Virus record (IMG/VR): IMGVR_UViG_3300032092_000025
Span: 1-64,000 of that record
Origin: a virus
Reading direction: 5' to 3' (one strand)
Length of the DNA: 64,000 nt
Shown here: positions 7,972 to 64,000 of the stretch, in pieces
How the letters are laid out: each line of letters starts with the position of its first letter
Position numbering within the stretch: position 1 is the stretch's first letter
Made by a program: the position numbers and the translations under genes
Notes under the pieces: generated by a model
What the model saw: the letters and a program-made list of their open reading frames with translations, nothing else
What the model was told of the DNA's origin: nothing
Databases searched by the model: none

Positions 7972-9600
7972 TTAAGATGGGCAGGTTCCTGACGAAACTG
8001 TTAATGTCTGAGATTGACCTTGTGTGGATGTATTACAACACGAACATCCTGTTACTCGCGGTTGAGTTATATTTAGGTAATCGTTCACTTTAACACAACA
8101 ACTTGCATTACTTGGATTAAAGACCGTTACTACTGATTGTCCGCTTACAACATCCGAACCTGTTAGTGTAATATTATTATATGTTTTTGTTATTCCTGTA
8201 ATATATTGCATAATCCCTTGACCTTTTGGGCACGTACCAATATTTGGATTAGTACTTGTATTGGTTTGAGAAGTTGGTGTTATTGCGAGTGTCGTACCAT
8301 TTTTTGTAATTTGTGTAGATTGAGTAAAACTTCCATTTGAAGAATTATTACTGAACACGGCAAAATTCAAATTATCAACTAAATTAAAAGTAATTGTGGT
8401 ACCAACCGGAAGACTTGTAGGTTGGTTTAAATCATTTAACACTGAAACTGTAAAATTAATTCTTTTCTGTGTTGCGGTTATAGTAGTTGTTGTTGCATTA
8501 ACGACTAACTTATAATTTGTTGGTGTGTTATTGTTAGATAAAGTAACATTGTTTTGAACAATTGTATTGTTCGCATCTTTTGCATAAACTGAATAAGACC
8601 CTCCAACCAAATTATTAAATAATCTACTTAATCCTCCTGAGAAAACTGATAATCCACCATCAATAGACCAAAGTATTGGTGTGGTGGCATTTTGAACTTC
8701 CATAAAAATAGAACCATTCGATTGACCAACACAACTAGGATTTGTTCCTTGTAAAGTTTTGAAACTCATTTGTGGTGTACTACAAGAACCAACGTAGGAT
8801 GTCGTCGGGTTATCAAATAATCCTCTACCACTAATTTGCCAAAGTCCTATTGGAGGATTGCTAGGATTTGAATTAATTAAGAATTGAGAACCTATCTGTG
8901 TGAACCAATAATTATTAGTTGAATTCCAAATTATTGTATATGTCGATGATGTGAAAGTATTTTTACCATTTACTATGTTTGCAGTCTTATTAAACTCCAA
9001 ACTTGTTGTTGGACCTTGTAAACATATGCTTTGTGGTACGAATGGTGGAGGTATTGGTGTTGGTGTAGGGGTTGATGTTGGTGTAGGGGTTGGTGGTGCC
9101 AACGTACAGATTGTAGTTGCGGTATAATCGGGTCCACCACCAGGCCAAGAATAATCTGTAACTGTTATGGTATAAATTTTTGAGGTATTGGCGTTTGATA
9201 AAGTAGCCCCTAAATATCCATTATCCCAAAGAATCTTATATGGAGGTGTACCTCCTGAAACATTTATAGTTATTGTAGACGCAGTAATATTAGGTGAACA
9301 CTCTATAGTTAGAGGGGTAACTGTAATAATATCACATTCACTTGTTGCAGTAATTCTAACGCAAGGGTGTGATGATATACAGGTAGAACAACTACCAAAT
9401 GATGTTAAAGTTGCACCAACCGATGAATATGTTGGGGCTCCTGGTAATAATTGTGATGATGGTATAACAATTGAACATCCCGTGAAACTATTTGGTATTT
9501 GAGCATAGTAAGAATCTCCAACTGTAAGTGCCGAACCCAAATTAGTAAGAACAAATGTTTTACTACTATCACAACAGGACTTTAAATATGATATTGCCAT
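7972..9600 (-). CDS. Putative tail fibre protein with Pro-Thr hinge
   Basis: A 542-residue protein. Residues 1-165 are cysteine-rich (SCCDSS, SCSTCISSHPC) and contain one SprB-like module (GGTPPYKILWDNGY, then ITVTDYSW). A hinge of Pro-Thr pairs follows (APPTPTPTSTPTPTPIPPP, about residues 168-186). The C-terminal part contains a second SprB-like segment (PSCVGQSNGSIFMEV, then LVGGSYSVYAKDAN), an Ig-like stretch and a terminal cluster of cysteines (GCSCC). Short Ig-like modules, a stiff Pro-Thr hinge and many cysteines suggest a surface-exposed receptor-binding or decorating fibre. It heads the two-gene unit ending at 5720 and has its own TATTTAT element 43 nt upstream. The absence of a signal peptide argues for a virion component. 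Confidence 0.6.
   Translation of the reverse strand: MAISYLKSCCDSSKTFVLTNLGSALTVGDSYYAQIPNSFTGCSIVIPSSQLLPGAPTYSSVGATLTSFGSCSTCISSHPCVRITATSECDIITVTPLTIECSPNITASTITINVSGGTPPYKILWDNGYLGATLSNANTSKIYTITVTDYSWPGGGPDYTATTICTLAPPTPTPTSTPTPTPIPPPFVPQSICLQGPTTSLEFNKTANIVNGKNTFTSSTYTIIWNSTNNYWFTQIGSQFLINSNPSNPPIGLWQISGRGLFDNPTTSYVGSCSTPQMSFKTLQGTNPSCVGQSNGSIFMEVQNATTPILWSIDGGLSVFSGGLSRLFNNLVGGSYSVYAKDANNTIVQNNVTLSNNNTPTNYKLVVNATTTTITATQKRINFTVSVLNDLNQPTSLPVGTTITFNLVDNLNFAVFSNNSSNGSFTQSTQITKNGTTLAITPTSQTNTSTNPNIGTCPKGQGIMQYITGITKTYNNITLTGSDVVSGQSVVTVFNPSNASCCVKVNDYLNITQPRVTGCSCCNTSTQGQSQTLTVSSGTCPS
9059..9094 (-). repeat. Two tandem 18-bp repeats encoding the Pro-Thr hinge
   Basis: Two adjacent 18-bp units, 9059-9076 and 9077-9094, differ at one base and encode part of the Pro-Thr hinge of the 542-residue fibre protein. 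Unit number could change by slippage and alter hinge length without shifting the frame. Confidence 0.6.
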
Positions 9601-9643
9601 TAAACTTTTTTTTAACTAAAAAAATAATCTTGTATTTTTGATT

Positions 9644-9650
9644 ATAAATA
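9644..9650 (-). promoter_or_regulatory. TATTTAT promoter-like element of the gene starting at 9600
   Basis: Sense context TTAGA-TATTTAT-AATCAAAAAT, with 43 nt to the ATG, the longest spacing of the set. It lies just past the stop of the 9666-10409 gene and so starts a new unit. Confidence 0.45.
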
Positions 9651-9665
9651 TCTAACCCGATGTTT

Positions 9666-10409
9666 TTAACAAGGATTAATTTCTTCACAATCACTACAAC
9701 TCCTCATTATTGGGTTTGGTAGTACAATAGAATAATCTCTATTGATACTTGAATTCCAATCAGTGGTACTTATATATGTTTGGTCAGGTGTTTCATAATT
9801 AGCGATAACAATAGTACACCCTGTATAACCAGTCCCTGTTCCTGTTCCCGATGGAGGTATTTCAACATACCAAGATATTTCGGGTTCAAATGTAGATTGA
9901 AAAGTTTCTTCAAATGTGAATGTATAGTTTGAGCAGCACGCACTAAAATAAGTAGGGGCGACAAAATTATAACAATCTTGACACGTAGAAAAAGTTGAAC
10001 CTGTTATTAACAAATCTATTGCAGCATCATTCGTAAATTGAAACCCTGAAAATATCCAACATTGTCCGAAATTTTCTAATGATGCAACCTCTCCAAAATT
10101 AAGAATTGGTACATTCTCCGTGTATAAACAAACTGAAGTGTCGGCACAATTACAGAATGTTGCATAAACACCTGGTAATAAAGTACAAACAACAGGAATT
10201 TCTTTAAGACAAGGTACTAATAATTCGTTTATTTTAAGTGTTATCGCCGGCGCTCCACTAAAGGCGTCAGGTAAAGGTATTACTTCAATTGGTGGTACAG
10301 TATTCGTTATCGTATCAATGTATATACAATCGTTCCCTAAAAAATTACATATATAAATCTCATAAGGGGGTGTAAGTCCTGTTATGGATGATATTATAAT
10401 GTTTTTCAT
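9666..10409 (-). CDS. Cysteine-rich fibre-tip or adaptor protein
   Basis: A 247-residue protein. Residues 1-75 form the same cysteine-bearing domain as the whole 76-residue protein at 3388-3618. The rest has further cysteine pairs (CNCADTSVC, STCQDCYNF, YFSACCSNY, RSCSDCEEINPC) and a Gly-Thr stretch (GTGTGYTG). The short segment around CQDCYNF and the closing cysteines recall the C-terminal modules of the two larger proteins encoded just upstream. It has no enzymatic motif or signal peptide. It begins 1 nt after the SprB-repeat gene and ends the unit that starts at 16543, which suggests it is assembled with that fibre, as a tip, a clamp or a chaperone. Its exact role is unknown. Confidence 0.55.
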   Translation of the reverse strand: MKNIIISSITGLTPPYEIYICNFLGNDCIYIDTITNTVPPIEVIPLPDAFSGAPAITLKINELLVPCLKEIPVVCTLLPGVYATFCNCADTSVCLYTENVPILNFGEVASLENFGQCWIFSGFQFTNDAAIDLLITGSTFSTCQDCYNFVAPTYFSACCSNYTFTFEETFQSTFEPEISWYVEIPPSGTGTGTGYTGCTIVIANYETPDQTYISTTDWNSSINRDYSIVLPNPIMRSCSDCEEINPC

Positions 10410-10410
10410 T

Positions 10411-12648
10411 TTAAGGACAACTAACGCAATTTATTATGTAACCTATTTTCAACTGAACTGTAATAGTTTGGTTAGACAACCCTGTTGTCGATTCTTCACA
10501 ATCAGTGTTTATTGTTATTGTATTATTAGCAACATCAACCACAACATCACCAATTCCTGTTACACCACTTAATAAAGTTTCAACTGCACTATACCATTGA
10601 GCCTCTGTTGGTATTGTTGTTAATGTGGTTGCAGTATAAAATGATTGGCTGAATCCTGTACCTGCGACACTAGTATGCGCTGAGAAAGTTGCCGAACTAA
10701 ATAAACAGTCAGTACAATTATCTATCAAATCTAAATAACCCTCAATAAACATTTTTGATATTGTTCTTTCTGTTAGAACACCCGTACTTGTAATTGTACT
10801 GTCGCACACTTCAAATAAAGAAGTGTTAGATAAAATATAGTTTCCTGTTAAAGTTATATCTCTTGTTGATGTACAACCATCATCGTCGATAACCGTTAAA
10901 GAGTAAGTGCCGGCCGATAAATTAGTGACTGTGGTACCTGTTTGTCCATTGACATTTGAAGACCAATTCAAAGAATACGGAGGATTTCCTTGATAGATGT
11001 TAGCATAAATTTGACCGTTTGACCCATTAGTTGAATTTGTAGGTATAAGAACAAAATCTAATTGTTGGCTTGGGTCTATAGTGAAATTGGAAGTTTGATT
11101 ACAAAAACTTTTAGTATCTTCTATCAAAATATCATACGAACCTGATGAAAGATTATTGAAGGTGTATGACGTTAAAAACGTTGGTGGTGATGGTGATATT
11201 TCTGTCCCATCTCCGCCCTCTATAGAATAAACAAATGGTCCTGTACCTCCAGAACTTTTAGTTATTGTAACAGAACCATTACTTTGCCCACAAGTTGCTC
11301 CTGTAACACTAGATGAAACTGTATATAAAGAAGTTGATTGTACTTCATACGTACCTGAAAAAGTACAAGTACCGTCTGTAATTGATAATGTATAAGTATC
11401 TGCAGATAAACCTCCGAACGTTGTATTAGTTGTACCGATTCTTTGTTTTGTGTTATTAGAAGAATTGGTCAAAGTGTATGTAAAATCTCTACTTCCGCCA
11501 ACCAATAGAATACTTATAGAACCGTTATTAGAGTCACAAGTACTATTATTAACATTTACTGAACTTACACCAAAACTATTAGGTTGTATTAAAGTTACTG
11601 TTTCATTATCATTACATAAAGCAGAATCTGTGACCTCAATAAAATATGAACCAGCAGATAACCCTGTGAATGTATATATTTGTGAATAACTAACATCGAT
11701 ATAAGATATTGAAGGTATGTAATACCTGTACGGTGGTGTTCCGTCTATTACGGTTATTTGTATTGAACCATTTGATGCAAAACAAGTTGGTGAAATTGGT
11801 ATTACCTCTCCTATTTTTACGGCATTTGTCTCTGAAATTGTTGGTGTTTGAGTTAGGGTACAACCTTGTGAATCCGTTATTGTTATTGAGTATTGACCTG
11901 CACTAAGACCTGTTATGGAAGAACCTGATAAAGATTGTCCTGTTGATTCTAAATAGAGTAATGGATTAACTGATGACCATTGATATGTGTATGGGGGAGT
12001 ACCTGTCAAACCTGTAATAAAAAGTCTACCAACACCTGTTGAGGCGTTCCCACAATCCGCATCGTTGACAATATATAGTCCATAATCAACCTCTACTGAA
12101 CTACCAATAATACAAGATTCACTTTTACCTGTACATCCCCCACCATCGTCAGCGATTACATAATAAACACCATCATCTAACGAATCAAATACGTATGAGT
12201 TATCTACACTTGAAGTTGATTGGAGTAGTACATCATTTCTATATAAATCAAATTGTACAGTACCATATGAATTCAAGGTAGATGCAGATAATGAACCATT
12301 TGATAATCCACAAGTTGTATTTGATATGGTACCTAAACTTACACAAGAACTCGCAGAAGAAATGTAGATGTTTATGGTCGCTATGTTATTTTCAGTGGTC
12401 GCAGTTGGGTTACCGCAAGTATCGTTTAACCTTAAAATGTAAAGTCCTGCGGATAGGTTTGTGACTTCAATAGTTCCACTATTAACCGTGTCAGTATACT
12501 GAAATGAAATAGGACTATTAATTGGTTCAATCCAAGTGATAGTTATTGGTTCTGCAGTGGTACTTAAATATAGAGTAAACCCACCTGAACCATTATTTTG
12601 GCAGTCACCAGTTACACTAAAACTACTTAAATTAGCAGGACAAGACAT
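10411..12648 (-). CDS. SprB-repeat fibre protein
   Basis: A 745-residue protein built from about seven Ig-like repeats of some 70-90 residues with the features of the SprB repeat: a cysteine near the start followed by SNGSI or SNGSV, then GTPPYxYxW, then (G/N)LSAGxYxxxITDxxGC. Clear copies lie near residues 200-290 (GTPPYTYQW, GLSAGQYSITITDSQGC), 290-360, 365-430, 435-520 and 540-605. SprB is the surface adhesin of gliding flavobacteria, and this repeat is mostly found in Bacteroidota surface proteins. Here the gene lies inside a baseplate/fibre operon and has neither a signal peptide nor a type IX sorting domain, so it should be a virion fibre. The last 130 residues form a separate module shared with the upstream 993-residue protein. 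The repeats carry regularly placed cysteines. Confidence 0.75.
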   Translation of the reverse strand: MSCPANLSSFSVTGDCQNNGSGGFTLYLSTTAEPITITWIEPINSPISFQYTDTVNSGTIEVTNLSAGLYILRLNDTCGNPTATTENNIATINIYISSASSCVSLGTISNTTCGLSNGSLSASTLNSYGTVQFDLYRNDVLLQSTSSVDNSYVFDSLDDGVYYVIADDGGGCTGKSESCIIGSSVEVDYGLYIVNDADCGNASTGVGRLFITGLTGTPPYTYQWSSVNPLLYLESTGQSLSGSSITGLSAGQYSITITDSQGCTLTQTPTISETNAVKIGEVIPISPTCFASNGSIQITVIDGTPPYRYYIPSISYIDVSYSQIYTFTGLSAGSYFIEVTDSALCNDNETVTLIQPNSFGVSSVNVNNSTCDSNNGSISILLVGGSRDFTYTLTNSSNNTKQRIGTTNTTFGGLSADTYTLSITDGTCTFSGTYEVQSTSLYTVSSSVTGATCGQSNGSVTITKSSGGTGPFVYSIEGGDGTEISPSPPTFLTSYTFNNLSSGSYDILIEDTKSFCNQTSNFTIDPSQQLDFVLIPTNSTNGSNGQIYANIYQGNPPYSLNWSSNVNGQTGTTVTNLSAGTYSLTVIDDDGCTSTRDITLTGNYILSNTSLFEVCDSTITSTGVLTERTISKMFIEGYLDLIDNCTDCLFSSATFSAHTSVAGTGFSQSFYTATTLTTIPTEAQWYSAVETLLSGVTGIGDVVVDVANNTITINTDCEESTTGLSNQTITVQLKIGYIINCVSCP

Positions 12649-60703: not shown

Positions 60704-60734
60704 TTGATAAATATTTGTTGTTCACTTATTTTTG
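60704..60734 (+). promoter_or_regulatory. Bacteroidota-type promoter of the SNF2-type helicase gene
   Basis: TTG (60704-60706), a 20-nt spacer, then TATTTTTG (60727-60734) fits the TTG/TAnnTTTG consensus with the same 20-nt spacing as at 2388 and 3307. Transcription should begin near 60740, about 11 nt before the TTG start codon at 60752. This argues against the earlier TTG at 60704 as the start. Confidence 0.6.
60707..60713 (-). promoter_or_regulatory. TATTTAT promoter-like element of the neck gene
   Basis: Sense context ACAAA-TATTTAT-CAATATT then ATG at 60699, a gap of 7 nt, short for the set. It overlaps the divergent host-type promoter, so the two could compete. Confidence 0.4.
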
Positions 60735-60751
60735 GTTATAAAACAATTTTT

Positions 60752-62506
60752 TTGGAAAACGTATTCTCAATAGAACAAAAGGCGATTGATATTTTATCTT
60801 CTTACGAGGGTGGTAATAATTTTATATTAAGATTAAAGCAACAATCTTTAGTTAATAAAAAGTTCTTCCCAACGAGAACACAATCTGATTATATAATTAC
60901 ATATCACAATGAAAAACCAAAGGTCGCTAAAAAGTGGGTTGATTTAGACCCCTATTTTGCAAGAAAGTTCGCAGATGAAAAATTGTTTCGTGAGGTCCCT
61001 GATAAAATCTATGTAGAAAAACTTTTAATAGAAAAAGAAAAATCTTATCATATTTGGGGAAAGTTTTTTGAATCTGAACATTTAAGTGACTTTTGGGTAC
61101 CTAAAGGAGCATTAATTAAAACTCACACGGTAGAAAAAGTTGATATCGATTATTCAAAGTATAGTCATAGACCTCCTCTTTCACATCAAAAAGAAGCGAT
61201 TGAGAAATTAGCAGGAAGTAAAAGGTTTATTTTAGCGGATGATATGGGGTTGGGTAAGACCACCTCAACTATTATCGCAGCGTTAGAGTCAGGAGCAAAA
61301 AAAGTATTAATCATTTGTCCCGCATCACTTAAAATAAATTGGTCAAGGGAAATTGAAAACTATACAGATAAGTCAATTTATATATGTGAAGGTAAGAATT
61401 TCTCATCAGACCACCATTTTGTTATCGTTAATTACGATATTATTAAAAACTTTCACGACATTAAAGATAAAGAAAACTCACAAATTATTAATTCTAAGTT
61501 TGATTTAGTTATTATTGATGAAGCTCATTACATTAAAAATTCACAAGCCCAAAGAACAAAACTAATTAATCATTTTGTTAAGAATATTAATAGAGTGTGG
61601 TTATTAACGGGAACACCAATTACATCTCGTCCAATTGATTATTATAACTTATTATCTTTGGTTGAGTCTCCTGTCGCTCAAAACTGGATGGCTTATGTAA
61701 TTCGTTTTTGCGAAGGGTATCAGTTTAGAGCGGGTCAAAGAAAAGTATGGAACGTAAATGGGGCATCTAATTTGGATGAACTACGTGAAAGAACTTCTAA
61801 ACAAATACTGCGTAGATTGAAAACTGATGTATTAGATTTACCTGAAAAGATTATTAGTCCAATTTATTTGAGGTTAAAATCAAAAGAATATGAAAATCTT
61901 ATGGGTGAGTATTTTGATTGGTTTAGAAATAATAAAGAAGAATCATCGTCACTGACAATTCAGTTTTCAAAATTAATGAAAGTAAGACAAGTAATTGCAG
62001 AAGAAAAAATTTCTCAAACAATCGAACTCGCAGAAAATATTTTAGAGCAAGGTAAGAAAGTTATTATATTTTCGAACTTCACGGAACCATTAAAAAGAAT
62101 TCACGAACACTTCGGTAAGATGTCTGTATACTTGGATGGTTCAACCTCAAAACCCGCAAGACAAAAGGCTGTGGATGATTTTCAAGATAACGATAAGGTT
62201 AAAGTGTTTTGTGGAAACATAAAGGCCGCAGGTGTTGGTATTACCTTAACATCAGCAGAGGTTGTAATATTTAATGACCTATCTTTTGTTCCATCAGACC
62301 ATTCACAAGCCGAGGATAGAGCATATCGTTATGGTCAAAAAAATAGTGTTTTAGTTTATTATCCTTTATTTGAAAACACTATAGAAGGTGCAATATATGA
62401 CATCTTAATTAGGAAAAAAGGGATATTTGAAACCGTAATGGGGGACAACTTGGATAGGGGTAGTGTTGCTGAACTAATACTCGATTCAATCAATAGTCGT
62501 GAATAA
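60752..62506 (+). CDS. SNF2-family helicase/translocase
   Basis: A 584-residue protein with all motor motifs of SF2 SNF2-type ATPases: ADDMGLGKTT (Walker A, about 162-171), IICPASLK, VIIDEAHYIKN (DEAH), LLTGTPI, then KVIIFSNFTEPL, YLDGST and AEDRAYRYGQ (motif VI). The N-terminal 140 residues are a separate domain. The single-lobe layout resembles fork-remodelling or annealing helicases (SMARCAL1-like) and could do the job T4 gives to UvsW, resolving stalled forks and recombination intermediates. No ATG lies before the Walker A motif, so I chose TTG at 60752, just downstream of a host-type promoter. The gene is followed 45 nt later by the dismutase fusion gene, which has its own promoter element. 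Confidence 0.85.
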   Translation: MENVFSIEQKAIDILSSYEGGNNFILRLKQQSLVNKKFFPTRTQSDYIITYHNEKPKVAKKWVDLDPYFARKFADEKLFREVPDKIYVEKLLIEKEKSYHIWGKFFESEHLSDFWVPKGALIKTHTVEKVDIDYSKYSHRPPLSHQKEAIEKLAGSKRFILADDMGLGKTTSTIIAALESGAKKVLIICPASLKINWSREIENYTDKSIYICEGKNFSSDHHFVIVNYDIIKNFHDIKDKENSQIINSKFDLVIIDEAHYIKNSQAQRTKLINHFVKNINRVWLLTGTPITSRPIDYYNLLSLVESPVAQNWMAYVIRFCEGYQFRAGQRKVWNVNGASNLDELRERTSKQILRRLKTDVLDLPEKIISPIYLRLKSKEYENLMGEYFDWFRNNKEESSSLTIQFSKLMKVRQVIAEEKISQTIELAENILEQGKKVIIFSNFTEPLKRIHEHFGKMSVYLDGSTSKPARQKAVDDFQDNDKVKVFCGNIKAAGVGITLTSAEVVIFNDLSFVPSDHSQAEDRAYRYGQKNSVLVYYPLFENTIEGAIYDILIRKKGIFETVMGDNLDRGSVAELILDSINSRE

Positions 62507-62551: not shown

Positions 62552-64000
62552 ATGAAAAAACTTCAAGAGAAAGTAGAAAAAATAGCCAACCAAATAAAAG
62601 AGATAGATACAAAGGAAAATGAAAAATTGTTTATAAATGAAATGAAAAAAATAGGGATTGAGAAACTACCATATTCCTATTCATCCTTAAAACAATTCAT
62701 CGACCCAGAGACAATGTCTTATCACTACAACGGACATTACAAAACGTATGTAGACAAATTAAATGACGCATTAAGTAAAAAAGATTACGGTGATGTCGAG
62801 TTAGAAGAAATAATTAAATCAATCGGTAAGTATAATAAAACAATTAGAAATAATGCCGGAGGAGCCTTTAATCACGCCTTATTTTGGAAAATGTTATCAC
62901 CAACCGAACAGAAATGTGGTGGTGAAATTTACAATAGAATAAAAAAGGATTTCCATAACTTTTTGGGATTTAAACAAGAGTTTACCGAAAAGGCAAAAAG
63001 AAATTTCGGTTCAGGATGGATATGGTTAGTTTTAACCAAATCAGGTAGTTTGAAAATTATGACAACACCTAACCAAGATAATCCACTTATGAACCTTGTT
63101 AGAAATGGTGGGTATCCTCTATTGGGTCTTGATTTATGGGAACACGCATATTATTTACGATACAAAAACAAAAGAGACGATTACGTCAAAAACTTTTTCA
63201 AGGCAATTAATTGGAAGTTTGTAAATAAAATGTACACTATGAAAGTTAAAACAAAACTTGATGAATCGGTCACCACCAAAAAAATAATATCTGAAGGTGT
63301 TAGCGAATCATGCTCAAAGCAAGAAAACGAGGCTTATAGATTTATTTTTAACACCAATTTAAAAGTTAAAAAGGCATATAAAATAGGAATCAATTATATA
63401 TTAAGACAAGTTTTTTCTGACAGATATTATAAAGACAACGAATATGGTGATGGGGAAATGTTTGGAATTTATGACTTAGAGGGTGAAGGAAGGTCTGTTT
63501 TGAATTTTCTAAACACTAATTACTCAGGATTTTGTATATTAGTTAACGATATCAATAAATTGTTAAAGGCAAATAATGAAAGACCTCTAAATTTTATTGG
63601 TCGAACTCCATCTGAACAATTTTATGAAATTCATAGAATGATTAAAATAATTGATGAATTTAAACTTAGAATTTTTTCCACTAAATCCAAAACTTTTCAA
63701 AACTTAATCGCGACTTTAAGTAAAACAAGTGAAATTGGTAAGGTAACAGAAGAGTTTGCGGTTATAAAATTAAAAGAAAGATACGGAAATGAAAACGTTT
63801 CTTTGGTTGGAAAACTAGGTAGTTCTAAAGACGCCAACGAAGGTATTGATTCGGAAATTATTGTCGATGGAAAAATTATGACAGCACAAATTAAACCTTT
63901 TGGTAGTTATACTTTACAGGATGGTGCATATACATTATATAACACTGCCAGTGTAAAAGAATATCTCACTGATTGGCTTGTTTTTTTCAATAAAAAATCG
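62552..64000 (+). CDS. Mn-type superoxide dismutase fused to a PD-(D/E)XK-like domain (partial)
   Basis: At least 483 residues, open to the right edge. Residues about 38-230 are an Fe/Mn superoxide dismutase: YHYNGHYKTYV (His58, gateway Tyr66), NAGGAFNHALFW (His108), FGSGWIWLV, NQDNPLM (Gln175), and LDLWEHAYYL (Asp194 and His198), ending INWKFV. All four metal ligands are present. Gly104 with Gln175 is the Mn-type arrangement; Fe-type enzymes have Gln at the first place. A linker (KKIISEGVSESC) and about 150 residues of unknown helical sequence follow. Then comes EEFAVIKLKERYG and NEGIDSEIIVDGKIMTAQIKPF (Asp433, Gln446, Lys448), a PD-(D/E)XK-like core with Gln at the middle position. I translated the frame through to the edge without meeting a stop. 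The enzyme would convert superoxide to peroxide; the extension suggests a second role in DNA handling or in packaging. Confidence 0.85.
   Translation, partial: MKKLQEKVEKIANQIKEIDTKENEKLFINEMKKIGIEKLPYSYSSLKQFIDPETMSYHYNGHYKTYVDKLNDALSKKDYGDVELEEIIKSIGKYNKTIRNNAGGAFNHALFWKMLSPTEQKCGGEIYNRIKKDFHNFLGFKQEFTEKAKRNFGSGWIWLVLTKSGSLKIMTTPNQDNPLMNLVRNGGYPLLGLDLWEHAYYLRYKNKRDDYVKNFFKAINWKFVNKMYTMKVKTKLDESVTTKKIISEGVSESCSKQENEAYRFIFNTNLKVKKAYKIGINYILRQVFSDRYYKDNEYGDGEMFGIYDLEGEGRSVLNFLNTNYSGFCILVNDINKLLKANNERPLNFIGRTPSEQFYEIHRMIKIIDEFKLRIFSTKSKTFQNLIATLSKTSEIGKVTEEFAVIKLKERYGNENVSLVGKLGSSKDANEGIDSEIIVDGKIMTAQIKPFGSYTLQDGAYTLYNTASVKEYLTDWLVFFNKKS

Follow-up and report, generated by a model that had tools for sequence, protein, structure and literature searches.

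A superoxide dismutase joined to a predicted nuclease in giant phages: a putative modular precursor packaged in the capsid

A single gene of uncultured giant phages encodes a Mn-type superoxide dismutase (SOD) joined to a predicted nuclease, and the protein is probably a modular precursor that is packaged in the capsid and cut in the prohead by a protease of the gp21 type, with packaging, cleavage, and enzymatic activity all being inferred. If this is right, a phage carries an antioxidant enzyme into a bacterium, and a processed multi-enzyme precursor serves as its packaging device. The gene lies at the end of the window, i.e., the whole 64,000-nucleotide stretch of viral DNA that was analyzed. 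It begins with an ATG at 62552 on the plus strand and remains open to the window end; the contig (69,472 bp) extends the frame to 64090, with the stop lying 90 bp beyond the window, and the 512 aa comprise, in order, a 30-aa leader, a complete Mn-type SOD, a 20-aa linker, and a 264-aa C-terminal domain. A preliminary description of the window had proposed a single frame joining a complete SOD to a long extension and had recommended reading past position 64000; the contig reaches the C-terminus, and the 512-aa gene, its Pfam matches, and its metal ligands agree with that proposal. The features are as follows, a slash marking each proposed cut.

60704..62506, plus strand: upstream SNF2/UvsW-type helicase (PHROG 62, 8e-115), by synteny the conserved neighbor of every architecture examined
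62552..64000, plus strand: SOD-nuclease gene, 512 aa, from the frame and its continuation on the contig; last 90 bp outside the window, end at contig 64090
62552..62641, plus strand: helical N-terminal leader, residues 1-30, proposed propeptide or capsid-targeting part (pN/pS 0.27; retained in SOD-less orthologues; pLDDT <50 at 19-41)
62633..62641, plus strand: site 1, INE/M, residues 28-30 ([IL]xE in 54/54 representatives)
62642..63265, plus strand: Mn-type superoxide dismutase, residues 31-238, 208 aa and 24.5 kDa if released (Pfam, PDB 5n56, invariant ligands)
63257..63265, plus strand: site 2, LDE/S, residues 236-238 ([IL]xE 52/54, 96%; Glu 54/54)
63266..63295, plus strand: spacer between sites 2 and 3, residues 239-248, disordered in the model (pLDDT <50 at 236-250)
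63287..63295, plus strand: site 3, ISE/G, residues 246-248 ([IL]xE 51/54, 94%; Glu 52/54)
63296..64000, continuing to contig 64087, plus strand: helical subdomain and PD-(D/E)XK-like core E400-D433-Q446-K448, residues 249-512 (AlphaFold, Foldseek, invariant tetrad)

The carriers are giant phages of freshwater Bacteroidetes, a large and so far uncultured group, and the window contig has 44 of 49 genes in common with a 322-kb genome of the group (G002). Two proteins with SprB repeats, encoded at 7972-12648 of the window on the minus strand, point to a Bacteroidota host. A scan of IMG/VR with the SOD part lists at least 600 matches, all of them relatives, and the C-terminal part, searched with its own alignment, has at least 552; the earlier remark that phage dismutases are uncommon does not hold for this phage group, in which SOD is not rare. 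No phage SOD-nuclease fusion was found described in the literature searched. The gene was present in 205 of the loci fetched and full-length in 184, from which 54 representatives less than 90% identical were used for the conservation counts; mean identity between representatives is 79% in the SOD and 49% in the C-terminal part. The pN/pS ratios of 0.06 for the SOD, 0.17-0.24 for the C-terminal part, and 0.27 for the leader indicate that all parts are selected coding sequence. An artefact of assembly or frame could be suspected of a metagenomic contig, the more so as two relatives (L054 and L070) have broken frames; it is already refuted by 184 intact full-length copies under purifying selection. 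Likewise, a sequencing error splitting the frame between residues 230 and 400, which had been named as a possible refutation, is ruled out by the frame of ~510 aa that is intact in those loci, with purifying selection in every segment. The breaks in the two exceptional relatives lie after residue ~320-330 and represent either assembly errors or decaying genes.

The SOD part matches Pfam Sod_Fe_N (3e-21) and Sod_Fe_C (1e-37) over residues 36-226, both above the curated cut-off, and aligns over its full length to solved Mn/Fe SODs, with an E of 2e-55 for the S. aureus Mn/Fe SOD 5n56. The metal ligands His58, His108, Asp194, and His198 and the Mn-type second-shell residue Gln175 are as the preliminary description had given them and are invariant in 54/54 representatives; the gateway residues His62 and Tyr66 are also present. 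Judged by its domains and ligands, the protein belongs to the Fe/Mn superoxide dismutase family, the dismutase activity itself being inferred. Among cellular SODs, the nearest belong mostly to Bacteroidota and are no more than 50% identical, and none of 80 carries a C-terminal extension of more than 13 residues.

The C-terminal domain is predicted to be a PD-(D/E)XK nuclease, an assignment that sequence profiles alone do not settle. Searched by sequence against Pfam, PHROGs, and PDB, it gave nothing solid: there was no credible match in PDB, and the Pfam matches were weak only, e.g., to DUF6602, MC4, and EcoO109I. A profile match to a curated nuclease family is not a defining feature of the divergent PD-(D/E)XK superfamily, in which Gln at the D/E position is a known variation. 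The call is supported by three lines taken together, namely the AlphaFold fold of the domain (44-sequence alignment, pLDDT 92.7, pTM 0.85), the top Foldseek matches, and the invariance in 54/54 representatives of Glu400, located in a helix, and of Asp433, Gln446, and Lys448, located next to or in adjacent strands. Against PDB, Foldseek places the homing endonuclease I-Ssp6803I and archaeal Holliday-junction resolvases (Hjc) at the top, with E from 2e-3 and probability up to 1.00, and ranks 1-12 are all, as we take it, members of the PD-(D/E)XK superfamily. This support is moderate, since the best E is 2e-3 and TM-scores are close to 0.25 by query and no higher than 0.53 by target. The domain matches I-Ssp6803I and Hjc in fold but has no sequence-profile similarity to them, and, unlike in those enzymes, a helical subdomain of ~140 aa precedes the core; I-Ssp6803I presumably shares the D...Q-x-K arrangement, a likeness that was not tested residue by residue. 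The fold prediction thus agrees with the core first proposed from Asp433, Gln446, and Lys448, to which Glu400 is added, and the lack of a nuclease fold that would have spoken against it was not encountered; nuclease activity remains an inference. A search of cellular genomes with a single pattern for the domain found no relative. In BFVD, the domain also occurs inside a 1113-aa marine phage protein, as well as in A0A6J5L953, a 501-aa "superoxide dismutase" of an uncultured Caudovirales phage, whose C-terminal fold is alike (TM 0.92, 38% identity). The latter is evidently the same fusion, deposited but annotated as SOD only, and no description of its second domain or of processing was found. 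Separately from the SOD-nuclease gene, the window encodes a PD-(D/E)XK nuclease of the PDDEXK_1 type at 544-1311 on the minus strand.

In phage T4, the prohead protease gp21 cleaves C-terminal to the Glu of L/I-x-E (PMC9026906). Among the 54 representatives, [IL]xE is conserved in at least 90% of members at residues 28, 195, 236, and 246 only; the occurrence at 195 belongs to the SOD active-site signature LWEH, and the remaining three are the domain joints. The preliminary description had noted an ISE-G in the linker that fits the T4-type rule; it is present, as are two further conserved sites, at 28-30 and 236-238, which that description had missed. The position of site 1, at the end of a short leader in 54/54, is that seen in T4-type internal proteins processed by the prohead protease, and its P1' residue is Met, not Ala, Gly, or Ser. 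Identity near the sites drops to about half; one representative (L051) has lost site 3, and 4/54 retain just a single strict linker site. Owing to a shallow alignment, the full-length AlphaFold model renders the SOD part poorly and was consequently used for joint disorder only; its pLDDT falls below 50 only at 19-41 and 236-250, which coincide with the joints. Internal translation starts might be postulated in place of cleavage. A start at M230 is unlikely, as this Met occurs in only 43/54 and lacks a Shine-Dalgarno sequence; a start at M31 remains undecided, as it has no such sequence, but neither has M1, so that a Shine-Dalgarno is absent at all the starts checked (M1, M31, and M230).

The strongest single observation is that the linker site is present only where cleavage would have a domain to remove. 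Across 135 distinct SOD frames, the C-terminal end is occupied by the nuclease in 104, by a domain related to the neighboring gene product in 15, by three further domain types in 8 (4, 3, and 1), and by nothing in 8, i.e., in other phages at least four different domain types take the place of the nuclease; the linker holds one or more [IL]xE in 127/127 proteins with a C-terminal domain vs 0/8 of those ending at the SOD. At the leader joint, a strict [IL]xEM is kept in 128/135 frames, with 7 exceptions. The neighboring gene, next past the SOD (contig 64087-65235; L002:4087-5235), overlaps it by 4 bp and encodes an unknown protein of 382 aa that starts MKIIISESQLIRLQES (MKIIISES), relatives of which are fused to the SOD in the place of the nuclease in other phages. 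Where this neighbor-type domain is the replacement, a 130-aa HEWVH domain precedes the leader; HEWVH stands alone in G002 and G015, and the 8 SODs without C-terminal cargo are HEWVH-SOD forms. One of the swapped domains is 42% identical to a stand-alone protein of G015, in an alignment spanning the INES/ITES of the linker and of the N-terminus, and another resembles, at an E of about 1e-32, a protein of G002 that starts MKITISEG.

The SOD, too, can be missing. A 309-aa gene in G016 and eight further contigs and a 294-aa gene in G015 encode the leader, an LxE site, and the nuclease without the SOD; these genes sit at the same locus, with the helicase on one side and the head-tail adaptor on the other, and no SOD was found elsewhere in the G015 and G016 genomes. 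On a tree of the nuclease domain, two independent losses are required, one nested beside a SOD-bearing sister with 100% bootstrap; the SOD has been deleted in frame at least twice. As read from these sequences, the architecture is modular; the optional SOD slot and the exchangeable C-terminal slot mark the gene as a cargo carrier, not one dedicated enzyme. Since the SOD is deletable while the leader and nuclease stay, and the C-terminal domain is variable, the SOD could be conceived mainly as a targeting or propeptide module of a packaged and processed protein, with catalysis secondary and the C-terminal domain as the real cargo. We consider this quite improbable, as the SOD is under much stronger constraint than any other part (pN/pS 0.06), every catalytic residue is invariant, and the HEWVH-SOD forms exist without any C-terminal cargo.

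Because the contig of the window is incomplete and does not include the head cluster, the presence of the protease is deduced from relatives that have 44/49 genes in common with it. Peptidase_S77, the gp21 type, scores above cut-off in 7 of the 14 SOD-gene contigs searched, i.e., both 322-kb genomes and five other fusion contigs, and also in both the 308- and 318-kb genomes with a SOD-less orthologue. LINE/A occurs near residue 60 in 7/7 gp23-type proteins, the position at which T4 gp23 is cut. The head cluster of G002 holds gp17, gp20, and gp23 types together with the gp21-type protease (G002:117086-117811), and its TerL/portal/protease/MCP block includes bS21 on the reverse strand, an arrangement shared with the bS21-encoding phages of freshwater Bacteroidetes (PMC9723584), in whose main text superoxide is not mentioned.

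Domains, conservation, modularity, and the protease in relatives are established at the sequence level; targeting, cleavage, delivery, and enzymatic activity are inferred from them. The precursor would be packed into the prohead, its leader, along with the L-x-E-S element of the linker, binding the scaffold and so targeting the protein to the head. Cuts there by the phage's gp21-type protease after Glu30, Glu238, and Glu248, which by computation yield a 208-aa SOD and a 264-aa nuclease, would free both, and these may remain in the head and then enter the host with the DNA. The delivered SOD might clear superoxide early in infection, and the nuclease might act on host, competing, or branched phage DNA. 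The virion-packaged enzyme whose halves are parted by a T4-type protease, one of the meanings first suggested, is favored by the joint sites, the relatives' protease, the SOD loss, and the domain swaps, while its packaging and cleavage are inferred only; virion proteomics for this phage group was not found in the literature and data searched. Against this reading stand the shortness and degeneracy of L/I-x-E, the Met at P1' of site 1, and the few representatives that lack a linker site. In T4, the targeting signal lies at the N-terminus; a linker-borne signal inside the chain is without direct precedent here.

Conversely, the protein could act uncut in the cell late in infection, as a bifunctional enzyme whose SOD guards replication or ribonucleotide reductase, whose nuclease acts on DNA, and whose conserved Glu residues have another role. 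The one continuous frame and the neighborhood of structural genes are compatible with this, and among the phage's own proteins is a class I ribonucleotide reductase, which as a radical enzyme could benefit from protection by SOD. It is nonetheless unlikely, as L/I-x-E is conserved at the joints only, the linker has it only if the SOD is followed by a further domain, and the SOD-less orthologues retain leader and site. A toxin-like or a defense/counter-defense effector sensing oxidative conditions had also been suggested; that superoxide might gate a nuclease linked to a redox enzyme is conceivable in principle, as an inference only. Nothing was found in support of either meaning, and we give them hardly any credence: the locus, flanked by the helicase and the head-tail adaptor, is neither defense-like nor toxin-like, the domain swapping speaks against coupled sensing, and the conserved protease sites would break the coupling.

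The packaged, processed precursor has its closest parallel in the T4 internal proteins and Alt, which carry a capsid-targeting sequence and are cleaved by gp21 after L/I-x-E (PMC9026906). The likeness extends to the short N-terminal leader ending in L/I-x-E, the gp21-type protease in the genome, and the diverse, exchangeable cargo; unlike in T4, several enzyme domains are present per chain, the sites lie between them and mid-protein, the cargo comprises SOD and nuclease, and the hosts are Bacteroidetes. SOD has been described in the virions of giant viruses (PMC9405923), and the chlorovirus PBCV-1 packages one that is believed to lower superoxide levels in the course of infection (PMC7019647, citing Kang et al. 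2014). That enzyme belongs to a eukaryotic virus and is of the Cu/Zn type, whereas the one here is Mn-type, fused, and accompanied by prohead-protease sites. The jumbo phage PA5oct (gp223) and the jumbo Vibrio phage 2.275.O likewise have an Fe/Mn SOD family protein with the four metal ligands; however, these are ~28% identical, 182-189 aa long, and without the C-terminal domain. The PA5oct gp223 record is marked "ESI-MS/MS", a mark not traced to virions. The Vibrio phage protein (L110:3968-4537) ends in KMLDESVNIRHLINFISK (KMLDESV), which resembles the linker here though nothing follows.

When found alone, the swapped domains start with MKx(I/L)xES/G, i.e., MKIIISES in the 382-aa neighbor, MKYIITES, and MKITISEG. 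The last belongs to G002:118104-119060 (L097), located between the prohead protease and a scaffold-like gene; this protein contains QVKPF, like the QIKPF of the nuclease, and is possibly another packaged PD-(D/E)XK nuclease. Dozens of small unknown proteins in G002 and G015 start MKx(I/L)xES or MKKxIRLTESDL...VINEQ. Such starts, e.g., MKYLITES and MKKIIRLTESDL...RVINEQ, occur 9-10 times more often than expected within residues 2-26 in the two genomes (19 observed vs 2.1 expected in G002, L092-L108, and 24 vs 2.4 in G015, L240-L255), an enrichment that declines past about residue 50; in a DHH-family protein, the (I/L)xESG start is kept in 23/23 representatives. By analogy with the T4 internal proteins, the motif is likely a capsid-targeting signal, a step that is itself an inference. 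A thymidylate synthase of G015 has an LHES near its start, probably a chance match, which indicates that the motif alone is not proof. We lean toward the broader reading that this large clade of Bacteroidetes jumbo phages uses a combinatorial cargo polyprotein, in which prohead-protease sites join a targeting leader, a SOD that may be absent, and enzymes that can be exchanged at either end, and that MKx(I/L)xES marks dozens more small proteins per genome as delivered capsid cargo. If so, a sequence rule would predict which unknown proteins of widespread lake phages travel in the particle, the delivered protein set of uncultured jumbo phages would become predictable, and the core claim could be tested by one protease assay. 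In G002:31641-34179 (L093), an array of small proteins, apparently paralogues, starts with MKYLITES or MKFLITES.
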